Shown in pieces: positions 16,876 to 60,513 of a DNA stretch of 64,000 nt. Made by a program: the position numbers and the translations under genes. The stretch spans positions 620,001 through 684,000 of the forward strand of contig NZ_JAJHIZ010000003.1 in NCBI RefSeq assembly GCF_021538615.1, in the 5' to 3' direction. The notes under the pieces were generated by a model. It saw only the letters and a program-made list of their open reading frames with translations. It was not told where the DNA came from and ran no database searches. Origin of the DNA: Niabella agricola (lineage in GTDB: Bacteria > Bacteroidota > Bacteroidia > Chitinophagales > Chitinophagaceae). How positions within the stretch are numbered: the first letter of the stretch is position 1; each line of letters begins with the position of its first letter.

Positions 16876-16999
16876 TTTTGCAGTTTTTTAGCGGTTTTAC
16901 AACCAGTATTACACGCAATATAACAGCAAAAGGTGTAAAAAACAAGTTTTTTGCGGATTTTTTGCGGATTTAAATTTTAATTTATGCAAACAAACCGAC
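16876..16999 (-). promoter_or_regulatory. Conserved promoter/operator element, copy A (upstream of susC-1)
   Basis: One of three copies of an element of about 125 bp (others at 23866-23993 and 60391-60513). On the minus strand it contains TTG (16945-16943), 20 bp, then TATATTG (16922-16916), matching the Bacteroidota -33/-7 promoter. Just upstream of the -33 box are two direct TGCGG half-sites (16952-16956 and 16963-16967) exactly 11 bp apart. More half-sites, ACGCAA and TGCA, lie at the flanks. Placement upstream of -33 suits an activator, while the downstream half-sites could also serve a repressor. Confidence 0.7.
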
Positions 17000-17453
17000 T
17001 AGTCATGGTCTTAAAACCCGGCCTGTCTGTTTTAAAAACGAGGTACGCCGTTTAAAATCAGTAGCTTAGAATCTATACAAGAGCCTGTCAAGCCGTTTAA
17101 TGTTTAGGTGTGTACGTTACCGGCTTTAATAAATAAAGAAAACACCAGCAACATCTGCATTACCTGCCGCACAGCACCGCTCGTAGCACTGTTTAAATAC
17201 AGTCATCTTGCTATTTGTTGTTGCCCGCTAAAGTAACCATGCATCGACGTCGCGATCTCCTTACGGTGTTCCACTATTTTACTACTGGTCCTGATTGACA
17301 GGAACAAACTATGGTCCTGTTATTACAGGCCTCCCCTGTATATCATGAAGACGGCGACATACCTTTCAATCTTTACATCATACCATCATACTTCCTTATG
17401 TTAACACGAATGAAGATTCTGTATCTGTCAGATGATCATCAGTCCTGTTTTTA
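17000..17453. other. Non-coding stretch between the two susC operons
   Basis: No convincing gene is seen here. It is the 3' end region of the second glycan operon followed by sequence upstream of the conserved element. A short stem (TACAGG, loop CCTCC, CCTGTA) near 17335 lacks a T-run, so it is only a weak terminator candidate. Confidence 0.5.
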
Positions 17454-18536
17454 CTAAGGCATTACATTCACTGCTATCTTTTTAACGACCGTCTCCGCTT
17501 CTTCAATGGTATTGTTAGCAGCAACAAAAACCGCTTCATACCGGCCGGGGGTATTGTATGTATAGCTATACGCTGTTGGCATTGCTCCATAAATGGATGT
17601 CCGAACCGGAATGGACCAATCCTTACCCAGCTCAACCGTACTTAAGGTAACGGGTGCCGAAACCGCCCAGTTCTCACTGTATGGATCATTGTACGGACTA
17701 TTGGGGTCATAAGGCACATATACCGGCAACACCGCCCCCGGGTTGTATTGCGGACTTTTGGGATCGTAGATCGGGTTCTTCGGGTCAAACACCGGGTTAT
17801 TAGGATCATAAATGGGATCCGTGGGATTTTTGTATATTGGTCCGTAAAGTGTTACTCTCGTATTGGTAATGGTGGAACGTGCTTTTGCATTCACCGGGTT
17901 TTCATCCACGATCCGGAAACCGGCAAGGGCCTGATCGGCAATGGTAACAACCGTACCATTTACTACAGCACCAATACTTTTCAGTAAAAAGTTTTCAATG
18001 ATCCATTGCCGCGCATAACCATTGGCCACCTGGGGCCGGTTGATATAACGCAGTGCAAAGTAAACCGGCTTGCCGGCCACTACATACCTAGAAAGATCGA
18101 CCGTGCGGGTAGCCACCATTGCAGCTGAGTTTGCCAGGGCAAAACTATCTGTTATATTTACCCAGGTAGCAGCCTTTACACTGGCAAGGTCGGCATAGTT
18201 CCCGCTAAAGTCTGTGGAAAGCAAAATGGAAAACTGATTGGCCTGTGTTCCTGCCGGATTGCCTGCGGCCACACCGTTTGAAAAACTTAGCGTAAGCCCT
18301 TTACCAGCTACGTCTACGATCCGGCCATCTTTATACTGATAGTCCTTGTAAATTTCACCGGGGTAAAATGAAACCATCGCCGCTGCTCCCGAAAACTTAA
18401 AAACAGCAGGCGTTCCGGCCTTAACCGTCAACTCGGTTGTGGTTACATCAAAGTCGGGCACCGCTACTTCGGCCAGCTCTTTCTGGCAGGATACCAGAAC
18501 GATTCCTGCCATTGCGATCCAATTTTTTATTTTCAT
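17454..18536 (-). CDS. DUF5017-like surface lipoprotein with DP-rich heptad repeats
   Basis: About 360 residues from the ATG at 18536, chosen because MKIKNWIAMAGIVLVSC is a lipoprotein signal; the frame opens 12 codons earlier. The start of the mature protein (VPDFDVTTTELTVKAGTPAVFKFSG, then VSFYPGEIYKDYQY) matches the DUF5017 family found behind susD genes. Within it, at about 17741-17838, a seven-residue unit of the type DPxNPxY is repeated three to four times (DPNNPVF, DPKNPIY, DPKSPQY), mirrored by a 21-bp DNA period. It is the third gene of the susC-2 operon, 29 bp after the disrupted susD. Probably an accessory glycan-binding protein. Confidence 0.75.
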   Translation of the reverse strand: MKIKNWIAMAGIVLVSCQKELAEVAVPDFDVTTTELTVKAGTPAVFKFSGAAAMVSFYPGEIYKDYQYKDGRIVDVAGKGLTLSFSNGVAAGNPAGTQANQFSILLSTDFSGNYADLASVKAATWVNITDSFALANSAAMVATRTVDLSRYVVAGKPVYFALRYINRPQVANGYARQWIIENFLLKSIGAVVNGTVVTIADQALAGFRIVDENPVNAKARSTITNTRVTLYGPIYKNPTDPIYDPNNPVFDPKNPIYDPKSPQYNPGAVLPVYVPYDPNSPYNDPYSENWAVSAPVTLSTVELGKDWSIPVRTSIYGAMPTAYSYTYNTPGRYEAVFVAANNTIEEAETVVKKIAVNVMP

Positions 18537-18565
18537 AACGATTATTTTTTGAAACCAGGCATGCA

Positions 18566-20415
18566 TTACCAACCCGGGTTTTGAGTCATTTTTAAATTAT
18601 TGATCATCTCCTTCTCCGGTATAGGCATCAGCACGTCCCGGGCAGAAGCCCGCGTAAAAGAAAGCACGAAGCCCGCGCCGGGCACATCCTGCTGCGCCTG
18701 ATTCCCCATATCCTGGTTTATTTTCAGGAAGATTCCCCAGCGAAGCAGGTCTGCCTTCCGGCAACCTTCCATATTGAATTCCCGCATGCGCTCATCCTGG
18801 ATAAAAGAGAGAAATGCTGCTTTAGAAGCACGTGCGGAAGCAGGCACTTCCCCATCTGCGGCCTTGTAAATAGTGGCCACTGCCGCCGCTCCAGAGCCAC
18901 CGCCCCCGAGATGGAAACCTGCGGCGCACTGGTGTAACTGCCTTCTTTGAAGAACCGGACACCCGTTGGATCTCTGGTTAAATTCACGGCTACCACTACT
19001 CCTCCCTGAACCAGGGCCGTTGCCTCGGCGCTGCTCCCGTTGCCCGCAGCAATGGTTACCGTGGGCGCGCTGGTATAGCCGCTTCCTCCATTGGTAACGG
19101 CAATGGATTTTACTCCGGTAGACCAGGCCCGTCTGCGCACAAGGTTCACAGCCGCTATGGCATCCGCCGTAGGCCCCCCGTTGATTTCGTTTTCCGCCTC
19201 AGCGAACATCAGGAGGATATCCGAATATCTTATAATCGGCATGTTAGTAGCGGATACTACGGAACTCCCTCTTGGGATGGCCTCGTATTCGCGTCGCCAT
19301 TTTGCAGGGAACATATACCATTTATCTCTTTCTGTTGCAGGCAACGGGCTCATCAATTTTTCTCCGTTCACCTGGGAATTCACATAGGTAAAATGGGCGA
19401 TGCTCCACCATTTCCTCAGATCACCTTCTTCAAAAGCATTATAAAATTTTGCAGTAATATTCATATAAGCGACGCCGTTACCGGTAGCAGAACCGGCTGC
19501 GGACTGCGGTCCGTTGATATAACCGATATTGGTCCATTCAGAAAAGGCCATAGTGGCAGGATCTGCATTATTTCCATAAAATTCCGCCTCCCACAAATTT
19601 TCTTTAATATCGTACTTATCCTGCGCTAATGTTATAAAAATATTGGGATAGCCGGGGTTCAGGCCATGGCCGGCCTCGGCATCATCCATCACCTTTTTTG
19701 CCCACATTTTTGCATCCTGATACTTCGTTACATCTTTTAATGGTTCTCCGGCCATCGTAAGGCAAACCCTTGCCAGCATTCCCCGGACGGCCGACTTGTT
19801 AACGGCACCGGAAAAACCCAGGCTCCGGATGTTTCGCACCAATGGCTCTGCCGCCGTTATATCCGCAAGTACCTGCGCGTATACTTCCTTTGCCGGAGCC
19901 CTGGCCACCGATACTTCAGACGGAGATTTGGTAGACGTTAGCTTGATCGGCACCCCGCCCCAGTATTGCACCAGTGTAAAATAGTAATAGCCTCTTAAAA
20001 ACAGTGCCTCTCCTTTTACGCGATCTCTTGCAGCCAGCGGAATTGCCGGGTTTTTATCTATATTTTCAAGCAGTACGTTCGCCCGGTTAATCCCATCCCA
20101 CAATGTAGTCCAAAGCCCTGTCATATACGGATCCGATGCCGAGTAATTGAAGTTAAAGGGACCGTTTAATGTAAGCCGGTTCATATACGCAATATCGGCC
20201 TCCCAATCCAGCAGATAATTTGCATAACTGCCCCAGAAACCGCCATTGCCCACCGTATTGTATACCCCCGCCAATGCAAAGTTCAGTTGTTGTTCGGTTT
20301 TGTAATAGGTGTCCGTGCCCAGAAAATCTGTGGGTTTGGGTTGTAAAAATTTCTTGCAGCTTCCCAGACCAATAACAGCGAAACACAAAATCGGTAAATA
20401 ATATTTTCGGTTCAT
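18566..20415 (-). pseudogene. RagB/SusD family lipoprotein, frame disrupted by one missing base
   Basis: The reading frame from 20415 encodes a normal SusD start (lipobox GLGSC, then KKFLQPKPTDFLGTDTYYK) but leaves the family at about residue 505. The family C-terminus (AFLSFIQDERMREFNMEGCRKADLLRWG) continues in the next frame down to 18566. Adding one G to the G5 run at 18907-18903 (minus strand) joins both into 616 residues. Between them, residues 437 to about 524 are an unusual insert of two GGxGYTSAPxVxI-type repeats not normally seen in SusD. Either a true frameshift, a slippage site or a sequencing error at a homopolymer. The partner susC and downstream genes are intact. Confidence 0.8.
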
Positions 20416-20434
20416 TGTTGAAAAAATAAAGTGA

Positions 20435-23400
20435 TTAAAAAGTCGCTTTCAAACCAAATACGATGGTGCGTACATTTGGATACGCCGAAAAATCATAGCC
20501 CGGCATTAACACATTATCCGCGGTAGATACTTCGGGATCAAGGCCGGAATAGCGGGTCCAGGTAACCAGGTTCTGTGCCGAAAGATCGACCGATAAGTTT
20601 TTGAGATAGGCTTTCCGGATCAGCCTGGAGGGAAGTGAATAAGACAGCGATACAGTTTTCAGCCTGAGGTAAGAACCGTCCTCGACATTCTTGGATGAAA
20701 AATAACCAATGAAGCCCTGCCCGCGTGTCCGGTAATTTTCATTGGTTGGATTTTCCGGGGTCCACCGGTTAACATAGCTGGCGTATTGATTGATATTGGC
20801 AAAGCCGTTACTGTTTCCTTCGAGCAACAAGCGGTTGGCATTGTAGATATCATTGCCGTAAGACCACTGAAAAAAAACATTCAGCGAAAATCCCTTGTAA
20901 TTTAAATTATTTGAAAAACCTCCGATATGTACCGGCTGCCCCCGCCCGATAATGGTCATATCGGACGCATTTACGGTTCCATCACCATTTAGATCCCTAA
21001 GCTTGATATCGCCCGGCTGTACCACATTGCGCGCGGTACCATTGGTTGCAACCGTTTTCTTGAGAACGTAGACACCGGGAGCCGGATTATCAAAATCCTC
21101 ATATTGATAATTTCCGTCCCAGATATAACCGATCATCATTCCTACCGGTCTGCCAACCTCCGAAAGATACAGGGGTTGCCCAAACTGGGAGAGATAGGCA
21201 GGCACCCTGCTCAAAGAGGGTTGGCCATAAGCAAGCGACAATACTTTATTTTTATTAAAGCTGATATTAAAACTGCTGGTCCAGTTAAAATCTGTTGTTT
21301 TGATGTTGGTAGTATTCAGTGTAAACTCCCAGCCTGTATTACGCAGGCTGCCGATATTTACCTGGGCCGTACCAAAGCCGGAGCTCTGCGGCAGATCTGT
21401 ATTCAGCAGCAGGTTGGATGCCGTACGGCGATACCAGTCCACTTCCAGCCCGATCCGGTTATCCAGTATGCCAATTTCATAACCGATATCGATCTGTTCG
21501 GTTTTCTCCCACTGCAGCAGGGGGTTTCCCAGCGTGGATAAATATGCAGCGGGTACAGGGGCCTGGTTGTTGAAAGAATATCCCTGACCCGTATTGTTTA
21601 GCGACAGTTTTGCATAGGCGTCGTAATCACCTACACGATTGTTACCATTCTGACCGTAGCTGGCCCTCAGTTTTGAGTTTGTAATAAATGGCAGTCCTTC
21701 CCGGAAAAAATCTTCCTGACCCATGTTCCAGGCAACGGCGCCCCCGGGAAAATAACCCCAGGGCTGAAAAAATTTCGAGGAACCGTCGGCCCTGAAATTC
21801 AATGTAAACATATATTTGGATCTGAAATTATAATCCACCCGTGCCGCGTAGGACACCATGGTATTGACGGTATTATAAATACTGGGAGCCGTAAACGTAC
21901 CGCCCGATGACTCGTCCAATCCGTCCATGCGTTTTGCTTCATTTGGAAGTTGTATACCAGTAAAGGAAGTGTACATTGTTTTATACTGGTTTACGCCAAA
22001 TAACAACATTCCGTTGATGGAATGGTCCTCCCCGATCAGCGTTTTGTAATTCAGTGTATTTTCATTAAAAAAGCTGTTGGAATTATTGTTGCTCATGCTT
22101 CCCCATACGCCATTCTTATTGGAGGGGTTTAACGGGCTCCCCTGTGATGTTTTAGAGTTATAAAACTGTTCGTTGCGTACATTGGATTGCATCAAGCCTG
22201 CTGCAGATTTTAAAATGAGTTCCGGGGTAAGGGCATAGCTGACATACGCATCGGCCTGCAACTGGTTACGTATCGTATGCTGGTATTGGTTTTGCAGATC
22301 AGTAACGGGGTTGATCCGGAAGTCGCTGCCTGTAACCGCCTGCTGATCGGCATCTTCGCTTAATAAGTCCTGCCCCTCAATAGCCGATACCGGCCGGTAC
22401 ATCCAGGCACGAACGAGGGCGGGAGACGTAGCGTTGCCGCCCCCGTAAATGGAGCGGATCTGCTGGCCGTAAACATCGGTTTGTGTAAGCGCCACATTGG
22501 TTCCCACTTTGAACTTTTCCGAAATCACCTGATCCAATGAAAGTCTTCCCGTATACCGGTCCATTCCCGTATTAATGATTACCCCTTTTTGGTTGAATAC
22601 CGATCCGGACACCGAATATCTTGTTTGTTCCGAACCACCACGGATTCCCAGGTTGTAATTCCGGTACACGCCCGTTTGTAAAATATGGTCCTGCCAGTTA
22701 ATACCCTGAACATTTTTATAATCATCCAGCGTTTTTCCCAATGCTGTATAAGCCGGCGTATTAAAAGAGTTGGGGTTTAATTCCATTTGGTATTTCACAA
22801 ACTCATAGGGGCTCATTACGGGAATCAGCGGCGGCTTTAGCTGATAGCCCATAGTACCGCCGATCGTCACCTCCGGTTTGCCCTGCTTTCCCCTACGCGT
22901 TTGAATGAGCACCACTCCGTTTGCGCCTCTTGAACCATAAATTGAAGTAGACGAAGCATCTTTCAGGATCGACACCGATGCGATGTCATCCATATTCAGC
23001 GTATTGGGATCGAGATTTTCTATGGGAAATCCATCTACCACATACAAGGGGGTAGTACTTTGTGTTAATGACCCCGCTCCGCGGATCATGATATTCATCC
23101 CTCCTCCGGGCTGCCCATCTGTACTATTTACCTGTACACCGGCGACCCTTCCGGCCAGCGCCTGCGCAAAGGAAGGCACCGGCGCTTTCTTCATATCTTC
23201 CACATTAACAGTTCCTACCGAGCCCGTAAGATCAAGTTTACGAACAGATCCGTAACCAATTACCACCACCTGGTCCAGAGAAGCATTTAAGGGAGTGAGC
23301 TGCACATCAATTTTTGACTGTCCGGCAATGGCAACGGCCAGGCGCTCAAAACCTACATGCGAAAACAGGATCGAATCCGTGGAACTGCCGCCACTGAGCT

Positions 23401-23590
23401 GATAGCTGCCTTCCGCATTCGTAGTGGTTATGGCAGCAGACTTACCATTTACCTGGACCGTAACTCCTTCCAATGGCCGGTTGTCCGTTTTTGCGCGAAC
23501 CACGCCTTTGATTACCTGCCCATGCACGGAGCCGTTCCCCCATATCCATACCCCGACGCAAAAAAGCAACTTTACAAATAAAATACGCAT
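20435..23590 (-). CDS. SusC/RagA TonB-linked outer-membrane transporter (second copy)
   Basis: A 1051-residue importer with signal peptide (ending GSVHGQ), carboxypeptidase-regulatory-like domain (IKGVVRAKTDNRPLEGVTV), the lead-in QVVVIGYGSVRKLDLTGSVG, the plug signature DASSTSIYGSRGANGVVLIQ, and a barrel ending in KATF. It differs clearly from the copy at 13404-16658, so it probably takes up a different or partly processed glycan. Its partner susD starts 19 bp downstream but is frame-disrupted. Conserved promoter element copy B lies upstream in the gap shared with the divergent oxidoreductase gene. Confidence 0.96.
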   Translation of the reverse strand: MRILFVKLLFCVGVWIWGNGSVHGQVIKGVVRAKTDNRPLEGVTVQVNGKSAAITTTNAEGSYQLSGGSSTDSILFSHVGFERLAVAIAGQSKIDVQLTPLNASLDQVVVIGYGSVRKLDLTGSVGTVNVEDMKKAPVPSFAQALAGRVAGVQVNSTDGQPGGGMNIMIRGAGSLTQSTTPLYVVDGFPIENLDPNTLNMDDIASVSILKDASSTSIYGSRGANGVVLIQTRRGKQGKPEVTIGGTMGYQLKPPLIPVMSPYEFVKYQMELNPNSFNTPAYTALGKTLDDYKNVQGINWQDHILQTGVYRNYNLGIRGGSEQTRYSVSGSVFNQKGVIINTGMDRYTGRLSLDQVISEKFKVGTNVALTQTDVYGQQIRSIYGGGNATSPALVRAWMYRPVSAIEGQDLLSEDADQQAVTGSDFRINPVTDLQNQYQHTIRNQLQADAYVSYALTPELILKSAAGLMQSNVRNEQFYNSKTSQGSPLNPSNKNGVWGSMSNNNSNSFFNENTLNYKTLIGEDHSINGMLLFGVNQYKTMYTSFTGIQLPNEAKRMDGLDESSGGTFTAPSIYNTVNTMVSYAARVDYNFRSKYMFTLNFRADGSSKFFQPWGYFPGGAVAWNMGQEDFFREGLPFITNSKLRASYGQNGNNRVGDYDAYAKLSLNNTGQGYSFNNQAPVPAAYLSTLGNPLLQWEKTEQIDIGYEIGILDNRIGLEVDWYRRTASNLLLNTDLPQSSGFGTAQVNIGSLRNTGWEFTLNTTNIKTTDFNWTSSFNISFNKNKVLSLAYGQPSLSRVPAYLSQFGQPLYLSEVGRPVGMMIGYIWDGNYQYEDFDNPAPGVYVLKKTVATNGTARNVVQPGDIKLRDLNGDGTVNASDMTIIGRGQPVHIGGFSNNLNYKGFSLNVFFQWSYGNDIYNANRLLLEGNSNGFANINQYASYVNRWTPENPTNENYRTRGQGFIGYFSSKNVEDGSYLRLKTVSLSYSLPSRLIRKAYLKNLSVDLSAQNLVTWTRYSGLDPEVSTADNVLMPGYDFSAYPNVRTIVFGLKATF

Positions 23591-23865: not shown

Positions 23866-23993
23866 GCGTGTTTGCAATATTTTAGCGGTTTCACAATTGA
23901 TATATTACGCAATATAACGGCAAAATTTATAAAAACAACATTTTATTGCGTTTTATTTGCGGTATTTTTTATTTTTTTTACGCAAAAAAACCG
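23866..23993 (-). promoter_or_regulatory. Conserved promoter/operator element, copy B (upstream of susC-2)
   Basis: On the minus strand: TTG (23938-23936), 19 bp, TATATTG (23916-23910), with direct TGCG half-sites at 23947-23950 and 23958-23961, again 11 bp apart, upstream of the -33 box. The flanking ACGCAA at about 23980 and the TTTAGCGGTTTCAC segment also match copy A. The element lies in a 483-bp gap between susC-2 and the divergent Gfo/Idh gene and may control both. The rest of the gap (23591-23865 and 23994-24073) shows no gene. Confidence 0.7.
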
Positions 23994-24073
23994 AGTATCT
24001 TGTAGCCGGTATCGTTCCGGCTTCGCCATAAGCGTTTTAAACACATCATTCATCATCACGTAATCGTTTTTGT

Positions 24074-25183: not shown

Positions 25184-25933
25184 ATGCGTAAAGACGAACG
25201 GCAAAAGTTAATATTAAAAGAAATCAACCTACACAACAAAGTGTTGTGCGCAGACCTGAGTTTGCAGCTAAAAGTGTCTGACGATACCATCCGGCGGGAC
25301 ATTATTGAGCTGGCCGAAATCGGAAAAGTGGTAAAAGTGCACGGAGGCGCCGTTGGCCCTTCTTTTGTGTCGCCATTTAGCGGACAAAATGAAGTTTACG
25401 CCCTGGAATCCAAAAAAATCATTGCAGAAAAGGCTCTAAGACTGATAAAAAATAATTCAACCGTACTCACCGAGGGGGGAACAACCATACTTGAATTAGC
25501 CAAAATGATCCCCAAAAATATGAAAGCTACATTCTTTACCATCAGTCCGCAAATCGCCATTACTTTATCGGAATTCGACAATATAGAAGTGATCACCATC
25601 GGCGGGCGGCTGCTGAAAAACGCCAACCTGCATGTGGGATCCGGAATGATCAACCAGCTTTCTGAAATAAAAGCAGACCTCTGTTTACTGGGCGCAAACG
25701 CTTTCTCCGTCGTCGAAGGGTTAACCGATCTTGACTGGGAAGTAGTTCAGGCCAAAAAGGCCCTGATACGATCTGCAAAAAAAGTGGCCGTTCTTACAAT
25801 TTCTGAGAAGTTAAATACCATCCAGACGATCAAGATCTGCGATGTAAACCAGGTGAATTACCTGATCACCGAACTGGACCCCGATGACCCCAGCCTGATC
25901 AGATACCAGGATACCAATCTCACCCTACTTTAA
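25184..25933 (+). CDS. DeoR-family transcriptional regulator
   Basis: A 249-residue regulator. The N-terminal helix-turn-helix (LSLQLKVSDDTIRRDIIELAEIGKVVKVHGGAV) is the classical DeoR signature. The C-terminal sugar-phosphate sensor domain shows EGGTTILELAK (the DSGTT-type phosphate-binding loop), TISPQIA and LGANAFSVVEGLTD. DeoR proteins usually repress sugar-use genes and are released by a phosphorylated sugar. It lies 112 bp after the disrupted Gfo/Idh gene in the same direction and is the only DNA-binding regulator in the window. It is therefore the leading candidate to read the 11-bp CGCA repeats seen at five places; there is no direct proof. Confidence 0.93.
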   Translation: MRKDERQKLILKEINLHNKVLCADLSLQLKVSDDTIRRDIIELAEIGKVVKVHGGAVGPSFVSPFSGQNEVYALESKKIIAEKALRLIKNNSTVLTEGGTTILELAKMIPKNMKATFFTISPQIAITLSEFDNIEVITIGGRLLKNANLHVGSGMINQLSEIKADLCLLGANAFSVVEGLTDLDWEVVQAKKALIRSAKKVAVLTISEKLNTIQTIKICDVNQVNYLITELDPDDPSLIRYQDTNLTLL

Positions 25934-26134: not shown

Positions 26135-27475
26135 CTAGCCCCCTTTTTTACCAATGGCAGCGGCATTTTTCTGAATCCGCTGAATGGCCGAAACAATCAT
26201 ATCCATGCTTTCCCGGTTGGCGAGTAACACATTCTGCGGCAACCATACGGCTTCCTGGCAAAGCTGTTCATTCCTGGGGCATTGATTATGCTCTTTAAAC
26301 CGCTCGTAACTCAACTCGGGTGCTGAATACATTTTTTTATAATTCTTGGTTTCAAATGTATTACCCAGATTCTCCACTGTATTCAGGGGTGTATACCCCC
26401 CCGAACAAGGAACTCCTTCCGCCTGCAACGCTTTTATGAATTGCGCTTTCGAAAGATCCGCAAAATGCCGCTTATCGTACCTGAAGGGAAACAGGTGGTA
26501 AGCCGCCTTTGTTACGCCGGCGTTGAGGGTATGTGGTACAATTCCTTTTATCTGCTTCATCTGCTGCCGTAAATAACCTGCATTTTCGTTCCTGGTGGCG
26601 GTTTGAGGTAATAGCCGCTCCATCTGCACCATCCCGATTGCAGCCTGGTATTCCGTCAACCGTAATTTGCTACCCGGACGTGCGGACGCGGTTCCATAGG
26701 GTAAACCAAGATTATGATATGACACGCACCGGTCCATAAAGGCCTCATCGTCACTTACAATAGCGCCGCCTTCCCCTATCGGCAGGTTTTTAGAATTCTG
26801 AAAGCTGAAACAACCGGCGTGACCAAAAGTGCCTACCTTCTTGTTGTTGATCTCCGCCAGCCAGGCCTGGCAGGCATCTTCAATCACCACCAGGTCGTGC
26901 TGCTTCGCAATTTGCATTATACTTCCCATATCTGCGGGCAATCCGCAAATATGCACCGGTAATATGGCCCTCGTGCGGGGTGTGATCTTTTTCTTTATAG
27001 CCTCCGGATCGATCAGAAAGGTATCGGGGTTTATATCGGCAAATACAGGCATCGCACCGGCGTTCAGTACTGCAGTAAGGGTGGCAATAAACGTATAGGG
27101 CGGTAAAATCACCTCATCCCCGCCTCCGATATCCGATTGCGCCACTGCAGTGATCAGCGCATTGGTTCCGTTAACCGTGGTAAGTGCTCTTTTTGCCCCA
27201 ATCAGCGCTGCCCATTTTTTTTCGAACAGGGTCACTTTCTCCGCCCGCGACCAAACGCCGCTGCGTAATGCTTCCAAAACAAGCGGCTCATCGGTTTCTT
27301 TATTCCAAATGGGCCATTTGGGCCAGGGCGCATTGACCAGAGGTGTTCCGCCCAGCACGGCCGGCGTTGCCCCGGCATTCAAAACAGTGGGCAATACCTT
27401 ATCAAAGCTGAGTGTTGCTCCCAGTCCGATAACTGCTGACTTTTTTATAAAACTTCTGCGGCCTTTATTGTTCAT
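26135..27475 (-). CDS. Tat-exported DegT/DnrJ/EryC1/StrS-type PLP aminotransferase (copy 2)
   Basis: A 446-residue paralog of the enzymes at 3758-5107 and 35648-37000. The twin-arginine N-terminus is GRRSFIKKSAVIGLGATLSF. PLP features are kept: NGTNAL, IEDACQAW (Asp200) and FSFQNSKN (Schiff-base Lys229). The conserved Pro-rich 'APWPKWPIW' after the signal is shared with copy 3 (TQPWPQWPN), where the chain enters the catalytic domain. It is the last gene of the operon starting with the Nramp-type transporter, 100 bp after the enolase-superfamily gene. The enzymes encoded with it (aldolase-like, dehydratase-like, dehydrogenase-like) suggest a sugar-acid or keto-sugar route; the amino acceptor is unknown. 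Confidence 0.88.
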   Translation of the reverse strand: MNNKGRRSFIKKSAVIGLGATLSFDKVLPTVLNAGATPAVLGGTPLVNAPWPKWPIWNKETDEPLVLEALRSGVWSRAEKVTLFEKKWAALIGAKRALTTVNGTNALITAVAQSDIGGGDEVILPPYTFIATLTAVLNAGAMPVFADINPDTFLIDPEAIKKKITPRTRAILPVHICGLPADMGSIMQIAKQHDLVVIEDACQAWLAEINNKKVGTFGHAGCFSFQNSKNLPIGEGGAIVSDDEAFMDRCVSYHNLGLPYGTASARPGSKLRLTEYQAAIGMVQMERLLPQTATRNENAGYLRQQMKQIKGIVPHTLNAGVTKAAYHLFPFRYDKRHFADLSKAQFIKALQAEGVPCSGGYTPLNTVENLGNTFETKNYKKMYSAPELSYERFKEHNQCPRNEQLCQEAVWLPQNVLLANRESMDMIVSAIQRIQKNAAAIGKKGG

Positions 27476-27575
27476 ACTTACAAATTTTAATTATGTTATA
27501 TTTTTAAACCGTTCCCAGATGATAGCGCATACCGCTCCATACATCTTCGTTTATTTTAATAAAAGGAAATCATGA

Positions 27576-28955
27576 TCAGCTTCGTTTAAACATCCTTTCA
27601 TAATGATCTGTACCCATAAAGATGCCACCGCTGCGCTTATAAAAATCATCATTCAACTCAAACACCCCTTGCTTCACTTGTTGCCAGGATGCGTTTTGCA
27701 CGGGGTGAAAGGTTTTCATCAACTCCCAATTCCTGTAATTCATATCCCCATTGGTTTCGATCATCGGCATTCCGATTCCCGGAAATGGCTGTAACCGCCC
27801 CGCCAGGTTTTTGTGCCAGTCCAGCAGCAACGGGTTTACGGTAAGATCCGCGCAGATGCAGGCTACATTATTTTCGTGGGCTACCTTGGCTATTTTAAAA
27901 CTCACACTTAAGGTTTTGGCAATGCCTTTTAACACCAGGGCCTTGTACCCCTGTTGAATTCTTTTGATGGCATCGGCCTCCGTATGTACGCTTTCATCGG
28001 CTCCTATAATCACCCCAACATCCTCAACAGTTTCATTATTGGACTCCCAAAACGGTTCTTCAATTAACCGTATCTGGTCAAAAGCACCTATTTTCCGGGC
28101 ATGATCAAGATACCTCAACAAGCTTTCCTTTTTTTGGTACCGTCCGTTTGCATCCAGTGTGTACACAAGCCGTCCATCCTTTGTTTGAGGCGTTCTTAAA
28201 TTTTTAAGCGTTTGATGTATAAGCGTAAGCCGCTCTATATCTGATTGGAGCATTTGCTCCTGGTTGCCCGGCATCCCGGTTTTAATTTTAAAAACAAAAT
28301 ACCCCTCCCCGGCAGCCTTTACCAGGTCCGTCATCGGCATACCATAAGGAATCTGATACATGACTGCAATCCTCGGATTATGCATACTGAGTGGCTTCCG
28401 GTAAAGAGCCGGGATCATCGTATCGAAATCCGGGCATTTGTTTTCAGATGCATAAACGAGCCAGGCAGCATTGTCTACACTAACCAGGGCATTATAAATA
28501 AAATTAAGGTTTACGTTGCTTCGTCCGGTAAGCGACACAGCGTATTTGCGCACCTCGGGCAAGATCGCAGATAAAAGATCTGCCGGCGTTTCGAAGGGCG
28601 TTTCTCTTGCCAATTGCAAGGCTTTTTCAGATAGTGCATACATCAATGCATTACCTGCACTTTCCGAGTGTGCCGAAAAGACGTCGGGATCTCCGTACAA
28701 AACACTCTGTGTGGCAAGGCCAAGCTTGGGACCGCTTGCAGCAGTTTGCATTAACGCAACCGTTTGCCATAATTCGGTTAAATACCCGCCCTTAAATCCA
28801 AAGGGCCGAACCAGGGGTTGCCGCTCAAAATCCGAAGCAATATGATCAATTTTGATTTTCATGTTTGAGGATTGACGGGCCATGCCTGCCAACGGTTTGA
28901 TGGCTGGCAGCAGCGACCATACAACCGTATCTTTGATAAAAGCCCTTCGTTTCAT
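27576..28955 (-). CDS. Enolase-superfamily (mandelate racemase/muconate lactonizing-like) enzyme with Tat-like leader
   Basis: A 459-residue protein. The leader MKRRAFIKDTVVWSLLPAIK looks like a weak twin-arginine signal. The barrel carries superfamily residues: FKIKTG with Lys223/Lys225, LDANGRY with metal ligand Asp268, LIEEPF with Glu299/Glu300, GADES with Asp320/Glu321 and a Lys at about 343 (LKGIA). Members abstract a proton alpha to a carboxylate, giving racemisation, cycloisomerisation or sugar-acid dehydration. With a DHDPS-like aldolase directly upstream (20 bp), dehydration of a sugar acid followed by aldol cleavage is plausible. If the leader is real, the reaction is periplasmic whereas the aldolase has no leader. 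Confidence 0.8.
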   Translation of the reverse strand: MKRRAFIKDTVVWSLLPAIKPLAGMARQSSNMKIKIDHIASDFERQPLVRPFGFKGGYLTELWQTVALMQTAASGPKLGLATQSVLYGDPDVFSAHSESAGNALMYALSEKALQLARETPFETPADLLSAILPEVRKYAVSLTGRSNVNLNFIYNALVSVDNAAWLVYASENKCPDFDTMIPALYRKPLSMHNPRIAVMYQIPYGMPMTDLVKAAGEGYFVFKIKTGMPGNQEQMLQSDIERLTLIHQTLKNLRTPQTKDGRLVYTLDANGRYQKKESLLRYLDHARKIGAFDQIRLIEEPFWESNNETVEDVGVIIGADESVHTEADAIKRIQQGYKALVLKGIAKTLSVSFKIAKVAHENNVACICADLTVNPLLLDWHKNLAGRLQPFPGIGMPMIETNGDMNYRNWELMKTFHPVQNASWQQVKQGVFELNDDFYKRSGGIFMGTDHYERMFKRS

Positions 28956-28975
28956 AACAATCCCTTACCAGACAG

Positions 28976-30031
28976 CTAGCCTCTATCCTGTTGTAAAAAG
29001 GTTGTTACAAAATCATCGTCCACCAGATCCGGATAAGCCCGGGTTACCCGTGTTATTTCATCCGCCTGCCCGGGCGATAACACCTCATTCGGGTTCAGGC
29101 ACCAGGTTCCCTTTAATAAACCCTGCCTTCTCAATACTTCATGAATACCGGGAATGCATCCGTGAAAACGATTGACCGGATCAAAAATGGCGGCATTCAT
29201 ATCCGTTACCTGAATATTTTTAGTGAGCCAGTCTCCCAGGCCGGCCTGATCGCCGGATTTATAGGCCTTGATGGCATCGAGCAACCTGGCAGCCTTATGT
29301 GTCCACACCGCCCAATGCCCCAGCAGGCCGCCCCGAAAATCTTTTTGCACGAGTCTTCCGTTGATATTAAACTGATACGTCGTCAGCAGATCTGCGATGA
29401 TATTATCATCATTGCCCGTGTACAGCGCAATCTCGTCCGCCCTTTCAGAACTGCAAACCGCCCGCACCACATCCAGTGTCTGATAGCGGTTAAAGGCAGC
29501 AATTTTGATGGCCTGTACATTAGGTATTGCTGCAAACTTTCGCCAGAATTCAAAACTCAAAATCCGGCCGCCTACTGCAGGTTGTAAGTAAAACCCAAAT
29601 ACCGGAACAATCTCGGCAACGGCTTTAGCACGCTCGATCAGTGCCTCTTCGGTCAGCGTATTCAGCCCACCCATGCTTAACAATCCAAGGTGATAGCCAT
29701 ATCGCTTTGCCAACCTGGCTTCACTAACGGCCTGGTCCGTTGGTCCGCAGATACCAGCAACCTTTACAAACTGCTCTTTACCGCTTTTCTCAACTTCATC
29801 AGCAGCCGTGTACAGCACTTTCTCCAGCAAATTAACCTGAGGCTCTCTTATTTCAAATTGGGTGGAATGCACCGCTACCGCAATTCCCCCGGCACCACTG
29901 GCCAGGTAATAGCGGGTCAACCTGCGTTGGATGGCCTCATCAAAATCTCTTTCGGCAGTAAGGGCCAGCGGATGTGCCGGTATTGCAATCCCCTCATGCA
30001 ATATATTTTTTATTGTATCCGGTAAACTCAT
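28976..30031 (-). CDS. Dihydrodipicolinate synthase/N-acetylneuraminate lyase-family aldolase
   Basis: A 351-residue class I aldolase-type (beta/alpha)8 enzyme without a signal peptide. Catalytic residues in place: Tyr148 (FGFYLQP) and Schiff-base Lys176 (AIKIAAF). The usual G-T-T phosphate-type loop near the N-terminus is altered (SGAGGIAVAVHSTQFEI), and a C-terminal extension of about 50 residues is present. Family members cleave or form 2-keto-3-deoxy acids. It overlaps no gene but is 12 bp after the epimerase-like gene, so the two are probably co-expressed. It is unlikely to be lysine-pathway DapA, given its context and sequence. Confidence 0.85.
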   Translation of the reverse strand: MSLPDTIKNILHEGIAIPAHPLALTAERDFDEAIQRRLTRYYLASGAGGIAVAVHSTQFEIREPQVNLLEKVLYTAADEVEKSGKEQFVKVAGICGPTDQAVSEARLAKRYGYHLGLLSMGGLNTLTEEALIERAKAVAEIVPVFGFYLQPAVGGRILSFEFWRKFAAIPNVQAIKIAAFNRYQTLDVVRAVCSSERADEIALYTGNDDNIIADLLTTYQFNINGRLVQKDFRGGLLGHWAVWTHKAARLLDAIKAYKSGDQAGLGDWLTKNIQVTDMNAAIFDPVNRFHGCIPGIHEVLRRQGLLKGTWCLNPNEVLSPGQADEITRVTRAYPDLVDDDFVTTFLQQDRG

Positions 30032-30043
30032 AATTGATATTCA

Positions 30044-31060: not shown

Positions 31061-31164
31061 GTGTTTATTTTTATTAATTGAGTCCGGGTACTACCGGGAT
31101 TTTCACCAACGATCCTGGGTTCTTCGTATGTAAAGACCATCGCTTCTTTTGCAACGTCTTAGGT

Positions 31165-32388: not shown

Positions 32389-32504
32389 AATAAAATAGAT
32401 TTCCGCTATGTTTTACCTTGCAACCATTAAATACCCTTCAAAAAACGAATATAAAAAATAATTCAACACAATGAGCAGTTTCTGCGTATTTTTAATTTAA
32501 AAAA

Positions 32505-32521
32505 CCGCATACAAAACGCAA
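32505..32521. promoter_or_regulatory. CGCA direct repeat, 11-bp spacing, upstream of Nramp operon
   Basis: CCGCATACAAAACGCAAA contains CGCA at 32506-32509 and 32517-32520, exactly 11 bp apart, the same half-site and spacing as in the three conserved elements. A further TGCGTA lies at 32483-32488 in the opposite sense. It is about 120 bp before the transporter start codon. The orientation relative to the gene is opposite to that in the three conserved elements. Confidence 0.45.
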
Positions 32522-33418: not shown

Positions 33419-33459
33419 TTTGCGTATATTCGCAATAAATTAACGCACAAAAACCGCAC
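33419..33459. promoter_or_regulatory. Cluster of CGCA half-sites just before murQ
   Basis: TTTGCG (33419-33424) and CGCA (33431-33434) form an inverted pair. CGCA at 33444-33447 and 33455-33458 form a direct pair 11 bp apart. The cluster ends only about 15 bp before the murQ start codon, a place that suits repression. No clear TAnnTTTG box could be fixed next to it. Confidence 0.5.
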
Positions 33460-34310: not shown

Positions 34311-34351
34311 GATTTCAACAAAATCAAAAACATACCTGATAATTCAAAAAT

Positions 34352-35629: not shown

Positions 35630-35647
35630 CTTCGAAAACAAATTGCC

Positions 35648-37000: not shown

Positions 37001-37024
37001 TTCGTTCAATCATTGTAATTACTT

Positions 37025-48814: not shown

Positions 48815-48833
48815 TATACGTAATTCTACAACG

Positions 48834-49202: not shown

Positions 49203-49212
49203 CCTGACCGTC

Positions 49213-50914: not shown

Positions 50915-50924
50915 CAACCGGAAT

Positions 50925-51812: not shown

Positions 51813-51821
51813 CTTTCAGAT

Positions 51822-52976: not shown

Positions 52977-52981
52977 ATATC

Positions 52982-54193: not shown

Positions 54194-54195
54194 TC

Positions 54196-55545: not shown

Positions 55546-55547
55546 CA

Positions 55548-55931
55548 TTATCCCTGCTTTGCTGCCCAGTAGGGGCAATATCCATCAGGCGCAATGGGCC
55601 CGCGCAGCAACTGGCAACCACCATATTTTTTGTTCTCCCCTTCCGGTTGCAGGTACAGCGCGCAATTTTCACACCGGTTCTCCTCCATCGGCGATTTTTC
55701 TACATACCCCAGGTTTTTCCGCTTGTCAAAATCTTCCTGCGTCATTTGAGAGCTGTCGATAATAGCAGGTCCCTGCGCTTCCGGTGCGGCGGCCGGCTTA
55801 TCGGTCTTTTCGGCTGCAGGATTTTCTTTTGCCGGTTCATTACCGCCACATCCCTGCAACAATGCGGTTCCGAAAGCCGCGGTAGTTGCCGAAAAAAATA
55901 TGCCCTTCAAAAATTTACGTCGGTCTTGCAT
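55548..55931 (-). CDS. High-potential iron-sulfur protein (HiPIP), Tat lipoprotein
   Basis: A 127-residue electron carrier. DRRKFLKGIFFSATTAAFG is a Tat signal, followed by LLQGC (Cys28), a lipobox, so the protein is probably anchored. An Ala/Pro/Lys linker leads to the [4Fe-4S] ligands Cys87, Cys90, Cys106 and Cys119 (CxxC, 15 residues, C, 12 residues, C), with the family ending GYCPYW. HiPIPs pass electrons in the periplasm. It lies 7 bp after the propeller gene whose own upstream neighbour is a dehydrogenase-like lipoprotein, suggesting an electron-transfer unit. Confidence 0.93.
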   Translation of the reverse strand: MQDRRKFLKGIFFSATTAAFGTALLQGCGGNEPAKENPAAEKTDKPAAAPEAQGPAIIDSSQMTQEDFDKRKNLGYVEKSPMEENRCENCALYLQPEGENKKYGGCQLLRGPIAPDGYCPYWAAKQG

Positions 55932-55938
55932 AACACGT

Positions 55939-57840
55939 TTAATTTAATTGATAACTACACAAATGAGAGTCACTTATAAAATATATTTTATTCTTGTAAC
56001 AGGCGCCGCCGGCTTCAATCTTCACCAGGGATGTTACTACGGTTTCCAGTTTAAAGGATGACCGGTTTACTTTTAAGATACCCTTCCTGCAAATCAGGTA
56101 ACAATCACCGGTGGAAGGATTTTTTACAAACACCCGCGGCGATTGTACGGTTACAACCGGGCCCAGCTCATCCGGTATGGTTTCCTTATAAATAATGCTC
56201 CGCTTTACCGGATCAAAAACAAAAAACAGTTTACTATCCGCAATTCCAAAAACATACTTACCGGCTTTATACAGATCACTATAGGTTTGCGTGCCGGGTA
56301 ATACATTTTCCTGCCAAATCGGTTTCAGCTTTTTTGCATCGAAAAGATACAGGGTTGCTTCCGTTGCTTTCTTCAGCCCACCAGTACCCGGTGCCGTAGT
56401 TGTACCGCAAAGCACCCGGATATCATCCAACGCCGTCATGCTCATTGTAGACTGATCGGGGATCAGCAATGTATCACTCAGGGTTTGTATCTTCCCGTCC
56501 TTTTCGTTATAGATCAACATCCCGCCACCGGTATAGCCATATTCCGGTGTACCGGTTAATAAAACCTTGCCCAACCGATCCAATACCAGCACGCGGTGCG
56601 GCCGGTGCACATGCTGTTTATCGGCGCCTAACACTACCGGGTTGGTTGCCCCCGCATTACTGCTTACCGGTTGGTTTGCACGGTACCGTACCAGTGCCCC
56701 GTAGGGATAAGCGGCAAAATAAATATGGTTTTTAAATGCCACCGAAGCATTGAACTGCCCGTAGGCATTGTAATTTTTAAACGCACGGGTAGCCGGATCA
56801 AACTCAAAAAACCGCATCGGAAAGGTGGTACCGCCAATCAGTTTTCCCGTAGAAGCCAGGTCTACGGCCATCACAAGGCTTCCCTCACTGGTATAGGTAA
56901 AATTTACTTTCTTTTCGCCTGAATGATTTTTAATCACCAGCTCCCGAAGACGAAAATCCATCGTTTGAATCATTGATCCATCCGGGAATTTTTTATGAAA
57001 CAATACCTGCGAGCCGGCGATGGAGGGCTTTTCATTCACCACTTTAAATGCTTCCGTAGTAAACGTTGCCGCACCTTTAAACAGTTTGATACATTTACCC
57101 GCTTCTTCGATCGATGCAGATCCGTACACGTTACCATCCTGCGCCCGGTACAACGAAGGCCATCCTTTCAACCGTTGCTTTCCGGTGAGCAGTTTCCGGG
57201 TTTCTTTTGTTTGGGCATTAAATGCGATAAGCTGGGTTTCGGTAGAGCCCACTCCTACATACACCCAGCCTGCGGCATCCGCAGCAATGGCCCGCGGGTA
57301 TTGCATCCAGGGTTCCTTGTTTATAAAACCATGATCTACCAACTGCCGGGTGCCGGGGTCATAAGAAACCAGTCCGCAATTGGGATAAGTGGCCGCCCAT
57401 ATCACCCCGTTATCATCCTCCGTAAAGGCCATAGCCGTAAGATCAAAGGCCTTTTGCGAAAAAGTAAACGCATTTTTCACCGGGTCAAATTCTGCAAAAT
57501 TGCGATTGAAATAGCCGTAAAACTTATTACGGGAAGACAACATAGACGCATACGGAGCATCGCCGGGAGGAAATGGAAGATCAAACTGGCGGGTAGCGCC
57601 CGAAGCGGCATCAACAGACAATAAACTATATCCGCCCCTGTGATCAAACAACCAGGCCAATACCACATTTTTTCCGTCGGCCCCGGTGGTCGCTACCACA
57701 CCCCGGTCGTTGCTTTCAGGACAGGCCACGCCATAATCATAAAAACCATTTCCCAGGTCCTGCGCAGTGCCGGCATAAGTACCTGAAAGGGCAGTAAGAA
57801 AAAAACAAAAAAAACGAAGCCGTTGGTACATTTTTAACAA
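55939..57840 (-). CDS. Secreted beta-propeller protein (paralog of 6603-8531)
   Basis: A 633-residue exported protein (signal ending TYAGTAQ) with blades such as NVVLAWLFDHRGGYSLLSVDAASG, FAEFDPVKNAFTF and IWAATYPNCGLVSYDPGTR. It matches 6603-8531 along nearly its full length, for example HRPHRVLVLD and GYTGGGML. Both carry a 'tpgTGG' loop near residue 470. It is encoded between a dehydrogenase-like lipoprotein and a HiPIP gene. A role in sugar oxidation or sugar-lyase chemistry is possible but unproven. Confidence 0.77.
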   Translation of the reverse strand: MLKMYQRLRFFCFFLTALSGTYAGTAQDLGNGFYDYGVACPESNDRGVVATTGADGKNVVLAWLFDHRGGYSLLSVDAASGATRQFDLPFPPGDAPYASMLSSRNKFYGYFNRNFAEFDPVKNAFTFSQKAFDLTAMAFTEDDNGVIWAATYPNCGLVSYDPGTRQLVDHGFINKEPWMQYPRAIAADAAGWVYVGVGSTETQLIAFNAQTKETRKLLTGKQRLKGWPSLYRAQDGNVYGSASIEEAGKCIKLFKGAATFTTEAFKVVNEKPSIAGSQVLFHKKFPDGSMIQTMDFRLRELVIKNHSGEKKVNFTYTSEGSLVMAVDLASTGKLIGGTTFPMRFFEFDPATRAFKNYNAYGQFNASVAFKNHIYFAAYPYGALVRYRANQPVSSNAGATNPVVLGADKQHVHRPHRVLVLDRLGKVLLTGTPEYGYTGGGMLIYNEKDGKIQTLSDTLLIPDQSTMSMTALDDIRVLCGTTTAPGTGGLKKATEATLYLFDAKKLKPIWQENVLPGTQTYSDLYKAGKYVFGIADSKLFFVFDPVKRSIIYKETIPDELGPVVTVQSPRVFVKNPSTGDCYLICRKGILKVNRSSFKLETVVTSLVKIEAGGACYKNKIYFISDSHLCSYQLN

Positions 57841-58057
57841 ATTAAGATCATAAGCTCCTAACCGATCATGTTCATCACATAATTACGCTGATCGCTGTCA
57901 TCCGGATAGCCCGGCGTTCTTTTAAGCGCCGGAGCACCCTGCAGTATACAGGAGGAGTACGCGCCCCGGTTCACGCCGGATACGCAAATAACTCCAATAG
58001 CCATCACACCACACGGCTAAGAACTTTTTGCCGGTTCCATATAAAACCGGATACCAC

Positions 58058-60223
58058 CTATTTCTTCTCCTGTTTAATTTTCACATATTTGGCGGCGGTA
58101 TCGGCAATATCCTTTGCCGGACTGGCTTTTAATTTTTCAATTTCCGCCAGGGTTGCCGGGCTTATTTTTATCTTCCCGGTACTGTATACTTTGCCCAATC
58201 CTTTTATGACCGCATATTTCCAGCCCGGGTTACCGGCCAATGGTGCTGCATCCATCTGTTTCAGAAGGGTGCTTACTTCGGATGCATTATTGCGCGCAGC
58301 AATGATGCTTGCATAATCTTCCACCAGTGCACCTTTATTAGTAGCAAAGTCGTTAAAAAACGTTTTACGGTCGATCAACGATTTAAAGAATCCCGTAGTG
58401 CTGCCTTCGGTACTGCTCAATATGGCCGTTTTATACCATGGGTTACTTCCGGCATATTTCTCGGCTACCTGCAACAGCACGTCCTTAACCAGCTGTTTGT
58501 TTTTCGAATTGCCGATACTCAGCGCGGCCTGCAATGAAACCCGCGTGGAAGGGTCGTTCAATGCGATTTGGCCGATTTGCTGAGCCAGCTCCGGATAGCG
58601 TTCGGCCAGTATCAGGCCGTGCTCCCGCACACCTGGGGCCGCATCCGCCAATGCTGTTTTCACGGCCGCCGCATCCAACGCATTCAGTCCGTCCAAAGTA
58701 TATATGGCATGTAACCGTTCTAATGGATTGCCGGTCGTTTTAACCAGTTGCTTTAAAGTGTCTACCACGGTTTTATCCTGCTTTGCAATCAATAACCGTT
58801 GTGCCTGCAACCGGTACCATTGATTACCATTGCCCAGATACGGCAACAATTGGGCGGGAGTCATTGCTGATAATTTAGCATAATCCGTGATGGCTTTTTT
58901 CCCTTTCGGCACAATCCGGTAAATCCGTCCCATATCGCTGCCACGCATAAAATCCATGTCCTTTTTAAGACTATCGGGAATCGACATCGGCGTTTCAATA
59001 TGCTGCCGGTAATAATCGATCACGTATAAATACCCGTCGGGCCCAACGGTAAAGCCCACCGGCCGGAACCAGGAGTCGGTAGTCGCCAGGAACTCCTTGT
59101 CTTTTTCGCTTGCTGCCCGCTTGGCGGTATAAACAGCGCTCTGCAGATCCAGGTTCATTACATCGCGGTGCACCAGGCTTCCGGCAACATCACCGGTAAA
59201 CACATTTCCATAAAATTCTTTAGGGAACGCATCGGCATCATATACCGTTCCACCAGAAGACCCGGTAAAATGATCCCTGGCATATTCGATCTGTTTCGAT
59301 CCCTGCTTTTTGAAGTTTGCATTACGCGCATCCGTACGCGCCTGGCGCCAGTACGGTGTTTCGGTTTTTTGATACATTATAGGATCGTGATCGGAAATAT
59401 TAATAATGGCCCTTGGATTTTTTAAATACTCGATGCGGTGTGTATACCTCCAGGGAATTACCGATTCCTGGATATGGATGGAATTCTCTGTAAAGAACCG
59501 GTGTCCCCAATCGTTAATGGTTTGCCCGAACTGCCCGGGCCCCGTTTCCTGCTCAAATTTCTTCTGGTCCAGGCGAAACCTGAAATCAGCACCCTGCATA
59601 TTGATGGGTGACACATTCGGTTCATCGGGAGCACTCACTTCACCTGCCTGTCCGCGGTTATTGGCATAAATCCAGTTATCTACGGAGTAACGCAGACTGG
59701 TGATCTGCGCTTCCGAGTTGGCCTTGTAAAAGCCGGTATACAATACTTCTTTGATGTCGGCCCGATAATCGTTATTGGTATCTTTTAAAAACAAAATATC
59801 GGGCGCTGCAGTTACGATCAGCCCGCCCTTCCAGGGCAATATGCTGGTTGCTTCAGAAAGTTTATCGGCAAACACAACGGACGAATCTACCCTGCCGTCT
59901 TTATTCAGATCCAGCAGCGCCCGGATATTGCCTTTTTCTTCCCCGGGTTTGGGAGGAAAAGGATAGTCCGGCATTCCCACGGCATATGCCACCCCGTCTT
60001 CATCAAAAGCCAGGTCAACCGGGTCGGTAATATATGGCTCCGCCGCAAATACCTGTATCTCGAAATTCGGATCCAGTTCAAATTTTTTTAATGCTTCTTC
60101 AGCGGTCAGCGGTTCAGCGTAAAGCGGCTTTTGCCCCTGTTTCCCGTCTTTACTCTTGCAGGAAAAAAAAGCAAGCAGGCAAAGTGCAGCTACTACAGAC
60201 AATAAACTAAACGTTCTTTTCAT
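58058..60223 (-). CDS. PVC-type membrane-bound dehydrogenase-like lipoprotein with HEAT repeats, no heme site
   Basis: A 721-residue lipoprotein (lipobox AFFSC, Cys22). The first 430 residues resemble the six-bladed propeller of PVC-type membrane-bound dehydrogenases (FAAEPYITDPVDLAFDEDGVAYAVGM, LLDLNKDGRVD, RPVGFTVGPDGYLYVIDYYRQHIETP). The second half is HEAT-like (ALADAAPGVREHGLILAERYPEL, LQAALSIGNSKNKQLVKDVL). Related planctomycete proteins end in a cytochrome c domain, but no CxxCH occurs here. Electrons might instead go to the HiPIP encoded downstream. Conserved element copy C lies upstream. Confidence 0.85.
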   Translation of the reverse strand: MKRTFSLLSVVAALCLLAFFSCKSKDGKQGQKPLYAEPLTAEEALKKFELDPNFEIQVFAAEPYITDPVDLAFDEDGVAYAVGMPDYPFPPKPGEEKGNIRALLDLNKDGRVDSSVVFADKLSEATSILPWKGGLIVTAAPDILFLKDTNNDYRADIKEVLYTGFYKANSEAQITSLRYSVDNWIYANNRGQAGEVSAPDEPNVSPINMQGADFRFRLDQKKFEQETGPGQFGQTINDWGHRFFTENSIHIQESVIPWRYTHRIEYLKNPRAIINISDHDPIMYQKTETPYWRQARTDARNANFKKQGSKQIEYARDHFTGSSGGTVYDADAFPKEFYGNVFTGDVAGSLVHRDVMNLDLQSAVYTAKRAASEKDKEFLATTDSWFRPVGFTVGPDGYLYVIDYYRQHIETPMSIPDSLKKDMDFMRGSDMGRIYRIVPKGKKAITDYAKLSAMTPAQLLPYLGNGNQWYRLQAQRLLIAKQDKTVVDTLKQLVKTTGNPLERLHAIYTLDGLNALDAAAVKTALADAAPGVREHGLILAERYPELAQQIGQIALNDPSTRVSLQAALSIGNSKNKQLVKDVLLQVAEKYAGSNPWYKTAILSSTEGSTTGFFKSLIDRKTFFNDFATNKGALVEDYASIIAARNNASEVSTLLKQMDAAPLAGNPGWKYAVIKGLGKVYSTGKIKISPATLAEIEKLKASPAKDIADTAAKYVKIKQEKK

Positions 60224-60390
60224 AAATCATTAGATTGATTATATTTTTTTTAAGCAAGACGGGCTATACCAAAATATTTCTGTTTATTTCCTGTATTCTG
60301 ACCGCTTTTTGAACGGTAGCAACCACAATACAGTGAAGGTTGCCGATACCTATACGAACAGATTTCAGCGTTGATATTGGCAATCATTCT

Positions 60391-60513
60391 ATCTTGCAGT
60401 ATTTTAGCCCTTTACTAAAATGATAACGCAATATAGCTGCAAAAGCTAGAAAAAACAATTATTTTGCGGATTTTTTGCGGATTTATATTTTATTTTACGC
60501 AAACAAACCGACA
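60391..60513 (-). promoter_or_regulatory. Conserved promoter/operator element, copy C (upstream of dehydrogenase-like gene)
   Basis: On the minus strand TTG (60458-60456), 20 bp, TATATTG (60435-60429). Direct TGCGG half-sites lie at 60465-60469 and 60476-60480, 11 bp apart, upstream of the -33 box. The right part (GCGGATTTTTTGCGGATTTA, then ACGCAAACAAACCGAC) is nearly identical to copy A. The element lies in a 495-bp gap between the dehydrogenase-like gene and the divergent sugar kinase; nothing else is recognised in that gap. Confidence 0.7.

Follow-up and report, generated by a model that had tools for sequence, protein, structure and literature searches.

A putative local DeoR-family regulon with composite promoter-operator blocks in a SusC/SusD gene island of Niabella agricola

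The window analyzed here is a 64,000-bp stretch of the Niabella agricola genome (contig NZ_JAJHIZ010000003.1, positions 620,001 to 684,000). It holds an island of genes, the operons of which are collected in Table 1 together with the features discussed below. The limits of operons A, B, C, and E are predicted, those of operon A from spacing, and operon D may extend beyond position 38005. The island encodes a MurNAc-6-P-etherase-like SIS protein (33474-34310), three DegT aminotransferases, and a DHDPS-like protein, as well as carrying several amidohydrolase genes. Such a gene set suggests catabolism of an amino sugar or aminocyclitol. Of the 44 window proteins scanned, Pfam identified a single one as a regulator, the DeoR-family protein, which possesses HTH_DeoR (53.1 bits; cut-off 21) and DeoRC (119.5 bits; cut-off 31.8) domains; neither an HTCS nor an AraC-type regulator was found among these 44 proteins. 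Among the NCBIfam models matched, one that stays below its cut-off is named L-fucose operon activator.

Table 1. Operons, regulator, and putative operator sites of the island (window coordinates).
Feature	Position	Strand	Content or context
Operon A	2731..16658	-	SusC, SusD, DUF4959/5126/5000 protein, DUF4998 protein, two proteins without Pfam match, DegT aminotransferase, GH43
Putative composite operator/promoter, copy 1	16874..16998 (core 16913-16998; triad 16952-16988)	-	Before susC operon starting at 16658
Operon B	17454..23590	-	SusC, SusD, DUF5017 protein
Putative composite operator/promoter, copy 2	23870..23994 (core 23907-23994; triad 23947-23984)	-	Before susC operon starting at 23590
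DeoR-family regulator (HTH_DeoR + DeoRC)	25184..25933	+	Proposed binder of the five sites; Pfam, NCBIfam
Operon C	26135..32388	-	Nramp-type transporter, epimerase-like, DHDPS-like, enolase-superfamily-like (weak, below cut-off), DegT aminotransferase
Putative fourth operator (triad, reversed relative to operon)	32483..32520	+	Upstream of operon starting at 32388 (-)
Putative fifth operator (triad)	33421..33458	+	About 15 bp before SIS/MurQ-like gene at 33474 (+)
Operon D (at least)	33474..38005	+	MurNAc-6-P-etherase-like SIS protein, MFS transporter, DegT aminotransferase, amidohydrolase
Operon E	55548..60223	-	PVC-type heme-binding DUF7133 protein, 633-aa protein, HiPIP (55548-55931)
Putative composite operator/promoter, copy 3	60390..60511 (core 60426-60511; triad 60465-60501)	-	Before DUF7133/HiPIP operon starting at 60223

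The three minus-strand copies of about 125 bp which the earlier note had aligned are indeed present in front of operons A, B, and E. Used as single nhmmer queries, they detect one another with E values of 7.6e-16 to 1.8e-7, and the next best window match of such queries has E = 0.1. Copies 1 and 3 are closely similar across the entire core, including the spacer. Each copy carries the arrangement TTG-N19/20-TATATTG, as had been claimed; in copy 1 the -33 TTG is found at 16943-16945 and the -7 box TATATTGC begins at 16922. Window-wide, TTG-N19/20-TATATTGC occurs only at 16945, 23938, and 60458, on the minus strand.

The anatomy of the core was read off the GC positions of 17 aligned copies from six genomes. 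It spans TCGGTTT to TTGCGT and measures 86 bp in 12 of the copies and 87-90 bp in five. The two half-sites that had been described just upstream of the -33 box, 11 bp apart, are found at exactly this spacing in all three window copies and in 17/17 overall; the half-site preceding this pair is 22 bp off in 15 copies, and 23 and 24 bp off in the other two. A pair of opposite direction, absent from the earlier note, is embedded in the -7 box of operons A, B, and E (TTTTGC-N3-TATATTGCG); its spacing is 11 bp in 15/17 copies, one half being lost in two. Downstream, the aligned place holds a pair spaced by 11 bp in 11 copies and by 12 bp in one, which is missing in five. This is the least constant of the pairs, and part of it is what had previously been recorded as "CCGCTAAAA." Nor is the -33 TTG constant across species, with TTA or TTC in 3 of the 17 rows.

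Between species, the mean pairwise identity of the core at the three operons is 0.80, 0.89, and 0.92; the corresponding values are 0.25, 0.50, and 0.36 for the 25 bp upstream of the core and 0.76, 0.57, and 0.60 for the transcribed part. Two copies from genome G016, the susC3 copy with a run of N and a copy truncated at a contig end, were excluded from these figures and from the core model described below. Conservation of the whole block, including its transcribed part, had been proposed; it is the core that is conserved most strongly (0.80-0.92), whereas the transcribed part is lower (0.57-0.76) and the upstream flank lower still (0.25-0.50). Related Niabella genomes have retained the 86-bp core in front of the corresponding operons, but not the upstream flank. 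A search of the window for structured RNA leaders gave no Rfam match at or above the gathering score.

The -7 box TATATTGC of operons A, B, and E differs from the sigma-A consensus TAnnTTTG and matches the variant TAnnTTGY. No occurrence of TTG-N19/20-TAnnTTTG, the Bacteroidota sigma-A form, was found in the window, while TTG-N19/20-TAnnTTGY occurs eight times, the three copies among them. A second candidate -7 sequence, TATATTCG, is present in the window solely at operons C (32446-32453, minus strand) and D. Over 17 genomes the -7 block TTTGCNNNTATATTGCG is matched 14 times, in 13 cases at the elements. The unusual form of the TATATTGC box may be due either to a sigma factor or to the half-sites that lie within it.

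Operons C and D are preceded by sites which the earlier note did not contain (the fourth and fifth of Table 1) and which possess a triad of half-sites without the remainder of the composite module. This triad, TGCG-N18-20-CGCA-N7-CGCA, consists of a same-direction pair 11 bp apart and an inverted half-site 22-24 bp away; taken jointly with the DeoR-operator explanation given below, it is in all likelihood the recognition unit. The fourth-site triad follows the exact pattern and is kept in 5/5 genomes aligned, the same type of string being found in all six island genomes. The fifth-site triad, likewise kept in 5/5 genomes aligned, overlaps the candidate -7 TATATTCG at 33425-33432. In copy 1, TGCA replaces TGCG in the first half of the triad. 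A search of the window for TGCG-N17-20-CGCA-N7-CGCA gives four matches (23947, 32483, 33421, and 60465), where 0.07 is expected from shuffles. In the six island genomes the triad pattern has 45 matches, namely 28 island-type and 17 elsewhere, and it has two in the other 11 Niabella genomes; the reversed control pattern has three and four, respectively. Two triad sites of G016, which is made up of short contigs, were assigned by sequence alone. A first, loose pattern had proved too weak (13 own-genome matches versus 5 for the control).

The N. agricola genome contains five additional exact triad matches, which are G+C-richer and apparently unrelated. The A+T content of the spacer is 0.38-0.72 for the 17 matches elsewhere versus 0.77-0.96 for 32 DeoR-linked triads (28 island-type and four from distant genomes), this cut having been noticed post hoc. 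CGCA-rich strings (e.g. TTTTTTTTAACGCAACGGGCGCAAGG..TTTCGCA) recur off-island, at G000:C3:4769475-4769638, G000:C3:4903106-4903156, G005:C11:606163, and G005:C63:340728-341062, and explain part of the off-island pattern matches.

Within the 220 bp upstream of deoR (25184), the TMEM220/ebo gene (48834), and the gene at 38116, no conserved triad was found among the five to six species aligned. The regions upstream of 24174 and 60719 are common with copies 2 and 3, and 40238, 45529, and other genes were left out of these alignments. The 220 bp before 48834 contain a different conserved block, with no triad. The seven plus-strand genes which follow (48834-55545) encode a TMEM220-like protein, a 245-aa protein with no Pfam match, TatD-like, UbiA-like, and dehydroquinate-synthase-like proteins, a protein with a below-cut-off TIM-barrel match, and a type I phosphodiesterase; they resemble the ebo operon eboA-F (PMC5133447; PMC6282210).

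The element is confined to one island. When a sequence model built from the three window copies (R1) was run against the 6.26-Mb N. agricola genome, the three copies have E ≤ 4.3e-29 and nothing further was better than E = 0.008 among the 150 of 496 first-look candidates scored. Such a scan had been set as a check on the element, which was not found before many unrelated genes. A core model of 17 copies from six genomes (R2) was applied to 17 Niabella genomes; in that of N. agricola, at E ≤ 0.1 and among the 150 of 6826 candidates scored, it yields, besides the three copies, one weaker place at 32439-32528, upstream of operon C (two overlapping matches). All of these are in the window, and the idea of a "scattered glycan regulon" is not supported. 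The strong core (R2, 1.6e-24 to 1.1e-10) is present in 6 of the 17 genomes. The best R2 match in the 11 island-free genomes, three of which are 72-83% complete, has only E = 0.0015; at E ≤ 0.1 some match is present in 17/17. Among 119 genomes, own included, R1-type copies at E ≤ 5.1e-9 are limited to the own genome and five of the same genus; this survey used stricter filters, so that weak copies may have been missed. In G007 the island gene order is altered, and the elements remain with the same operons.

Orthologues of the DeoR protein (94-99%) are found in exactly the six Niabella genomes with the strong core; the other 11 possess homologues of at most 61%. Among named genomes, the protein is encoded by N. 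aurantiaca, Niabella pedocola, and two metagenome bins of the genus, and that of N. aurantiaca DSM 17617 contains the orthologous island. Since in Niabella the entire island, deoR included, is inherited as one, this co-occurrence does not single out DeoR, but the presence of the triad beside distant orthologues in three genomes does. The triad pattern was fixed first and then sought beside 57 loci (55 genes) outside the six, with DeoR homologues of 43-71%. At all three of the 70-71% loci (Daejeonella sp. L129, G783, and G703) a triad is found no more than 1.5 kb from deoR. In Daejeonella it lies about 30 bp ahead of the SIS gene; in G783, about 50 bp ahead of deoR, between deoR and a susC-like gene; and in G703, about 15 bp beyond deoR. 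Among 1000 simulated sequences of the same first-order composition, the triad was attained by 3, 4, and 2 for L129, G783, and G703, respectively. The SIS gene has a triad directly in front of it in both Niabella and Daejeonella, and the two SIS proteins are 69% identical. G703 has a second A+T-rich triad 29 kb away, approximately 0.4 kb upstream of the Nramp orthologue. Whole-genome scans of Daejeonella, G703, and G783 reveal one triad match each away from deoR.

Beside DeoR homologues of 43-64%, the triad was found at none of 54 loci (mostly 3.7 kb; two genes counted twice). Eight whole genomes with homologues of 56-64% contain 16 triad matches versus 4 for the control, with none less than 35 kb from the deoR homologues found. 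The 61% homologue of G015 is accompanied by an inverted half-site pair only. A small number of the 54 loci have a related 10-bp-spaced pair, e.g. TTTGCGTTTTTATGCG upstream of the G011 homologue. Similar 10-bp-spaced pairs are found near homologues of 46-51% (L096 2613 and 11854; L102 372), with ATGCGTTTTTATGCA at L097 10664; they are perhaps the operator of a sister regulator.

The proposal that one regulator serves all copies is well supported. The sites co-occur with deoR both within and beyond the genus. The DeoR protein, which had been named as a candidate binder, is favored by the phyletic match (6/17 Niabella genomes) and by the triad at 3/3 distant loci of 70-71%; all five putative sites in the window are within approximately 35 kb of deoR. 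The 125-bp blocks are thus very probably promoters with putative operators for this protein, the unit of which would be the half-site CGCA(AA). Together with the sites at operons C and D, they would constitute a local DeoR regulon of at least five neighboring operons, which is probably repressive. At operons A, B, and E the triad is situated immediately upstream of the -33 position. DeoR is predicted to bind the sites with four subunits and would repress in competition with RNA polymerase for the -7 box; it would be released on binding a phosphorylated sugar-type intermediate from the island's enzymes. The number of half-sites, four, suggests a tetramer. Competition with RNA polymerase, and hence repression, is the simplest reading of the pair within the -7 box at A, B, and E and of the triad over the candidate -7 at D. 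As no triad precedes deoR in Niabella (220 bp aligned), autoregulation is not indicated.

The operon C triad lies upstream of the candidate promoter, an arrangement which also fits activation. It is nevertheless unlikely that DeoR binds the sites but activates, or does both, recruiting RNA polymerase at A, B, E, and C and repressing only at D. Such a role would suit the 11-bp pair situated just upstream of -33 in 17/17 core copies, the site at operon C, and the name of the below-cut-off NCBIfam match, whereas the -7 box of A, B, and E includes a second pair and the candidate -7 of D is covered by the triad, both of which point to repression. So do data from Caldicellulosiruptor, in which the predicted sites of 12/12 LacI- and DeoR-family regulators overlap promoters or are found in 5′ UTRs, which the authors attribute to repression (PMC8579813).

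The second alternative is that the sharing is explained by the -7 region TAnnTTGY, recognized by an alternative sigma factor, rather than by an operator. The sequence TATATTGC does fit TAnnTTGY, which is motif SM5 of Flavobacterium psychrophilum and for which its authors consider control by an alternative sigma factor most likely (PMC9723704); furthermore, TTG-N19/20-TATATTGC is confined in the window to the three copies. The Niabella box differs from SM5 in that CGCA-type half-sites are found inside it and that operons C and D carry TATATTCG. We consider a sigma factor an improbable explanation, since it would account neither for the upstream triad, nor for the triads at C and D with TATATTCG as candidate -7, nor for the triad that accompanies deoR orthologues in other genera, and the more general TTG-N19/20-TAnnTTGY has, as noted, occurrences in the window other than the copies. 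The operators might also be bound by another protein encoded outside the window, and the domain scan covered 44 of the 87 window ORFs (≥100 aa); with deoR common to the island in six Niabella genomes and to three distant triad loci, and with a repeat spacing that agrees with the DeoR family, this is very unlikely. Although copies 1 and 3 are very alike over the entire core, it is scarcely credible that the blocks arose from a small mobile or duplicated element and play no part in regulation. A mobile repeat is rejected in view of the few copies per genome (the own genome has no strong ones beyond the three), their placement before the same operons in related species, and the retention of the core while the flanks diverged.

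With the blocks read as promoters operated by DeoR, it is conceivable, although we incline against it, that the core is a portable composite switch, in which a DeoR-type tetramer would bridge the upstream triad and the second operator in the -7 box, and which was copied onto three unrelated operons, of which two encode importers and one is the heme/HiPIP electron-transfer operon. With the second operator within the -7 box itself, promoter and operator could not drift apart. SusC/SusD loci are usually controlled by HTCS and by sigma/anti-sigma systems. If it exists, a portable switch would represent a DeoR-run alternative to these.

We regard the finding as well supported and ordinary in kind; the uncommon trait would be the composite switches on three operons with a predicted operator inside the -7 box. 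Neither DeoR control of SusC/SusD operons nor any Niabella DeoR was found in the open-licence literature. IolR of Bacillus subtilis, a member of the DeoR family, has an operator of tandem direct 11-mer repeats, the sequence and target genes of which differ from those of the Niabella sites. For the DeoR-family protein RhaR, the motifs of four taxonomic groups have in common a pair of imperfect direct repeats of 10-11-bp periodicity, and a gel shift was performed on DNA containing four tandem sites (PMC3870299). The Niabella system resembles RhaR in the protein family, in direct repeats of this periodicity, and in a local regulon, those of RhaR comprising mostly one to several operons. In contrast to RhaR (PMC3870299), the Niabella half-site is CGCAAA (TCGAAA in the C. 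aurantiacus consensus), there is an additional inverted half-site 22-24 bp away as well as a further pair within the -7 box, and the predicted targets are SusC/SusD and aminotransferase/amidohydrolase operons. A tetramer on a two-half operator, as predicted here for Niabella, is also a feature of CggR and the SorC-family DeoR of B. subtilis, the operator of the latter having a palindromic part and a direct-repeat part (PMC11229326). Despite the name these belong to a different protein family, and the analogy extends to the four-subunit reading only.

The island gains a testable regulator-operator pair, in which a candidate protein is matched with a half-site of defined spacings and with five target operons. 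A single signal would then govern two SusC/SusD importers, the three DegT aminotransferases, the amidohydrolases, the MurQ-like SIS protein, and the heme/HiPIP operon, which should aid the search for the substrate of the island. In Daejeonella L129 the region directly before the deoR orthologue (336-9844) contains contractile-injection-system genes (tape measure, eCIS core domain) and an AAA ATPase.
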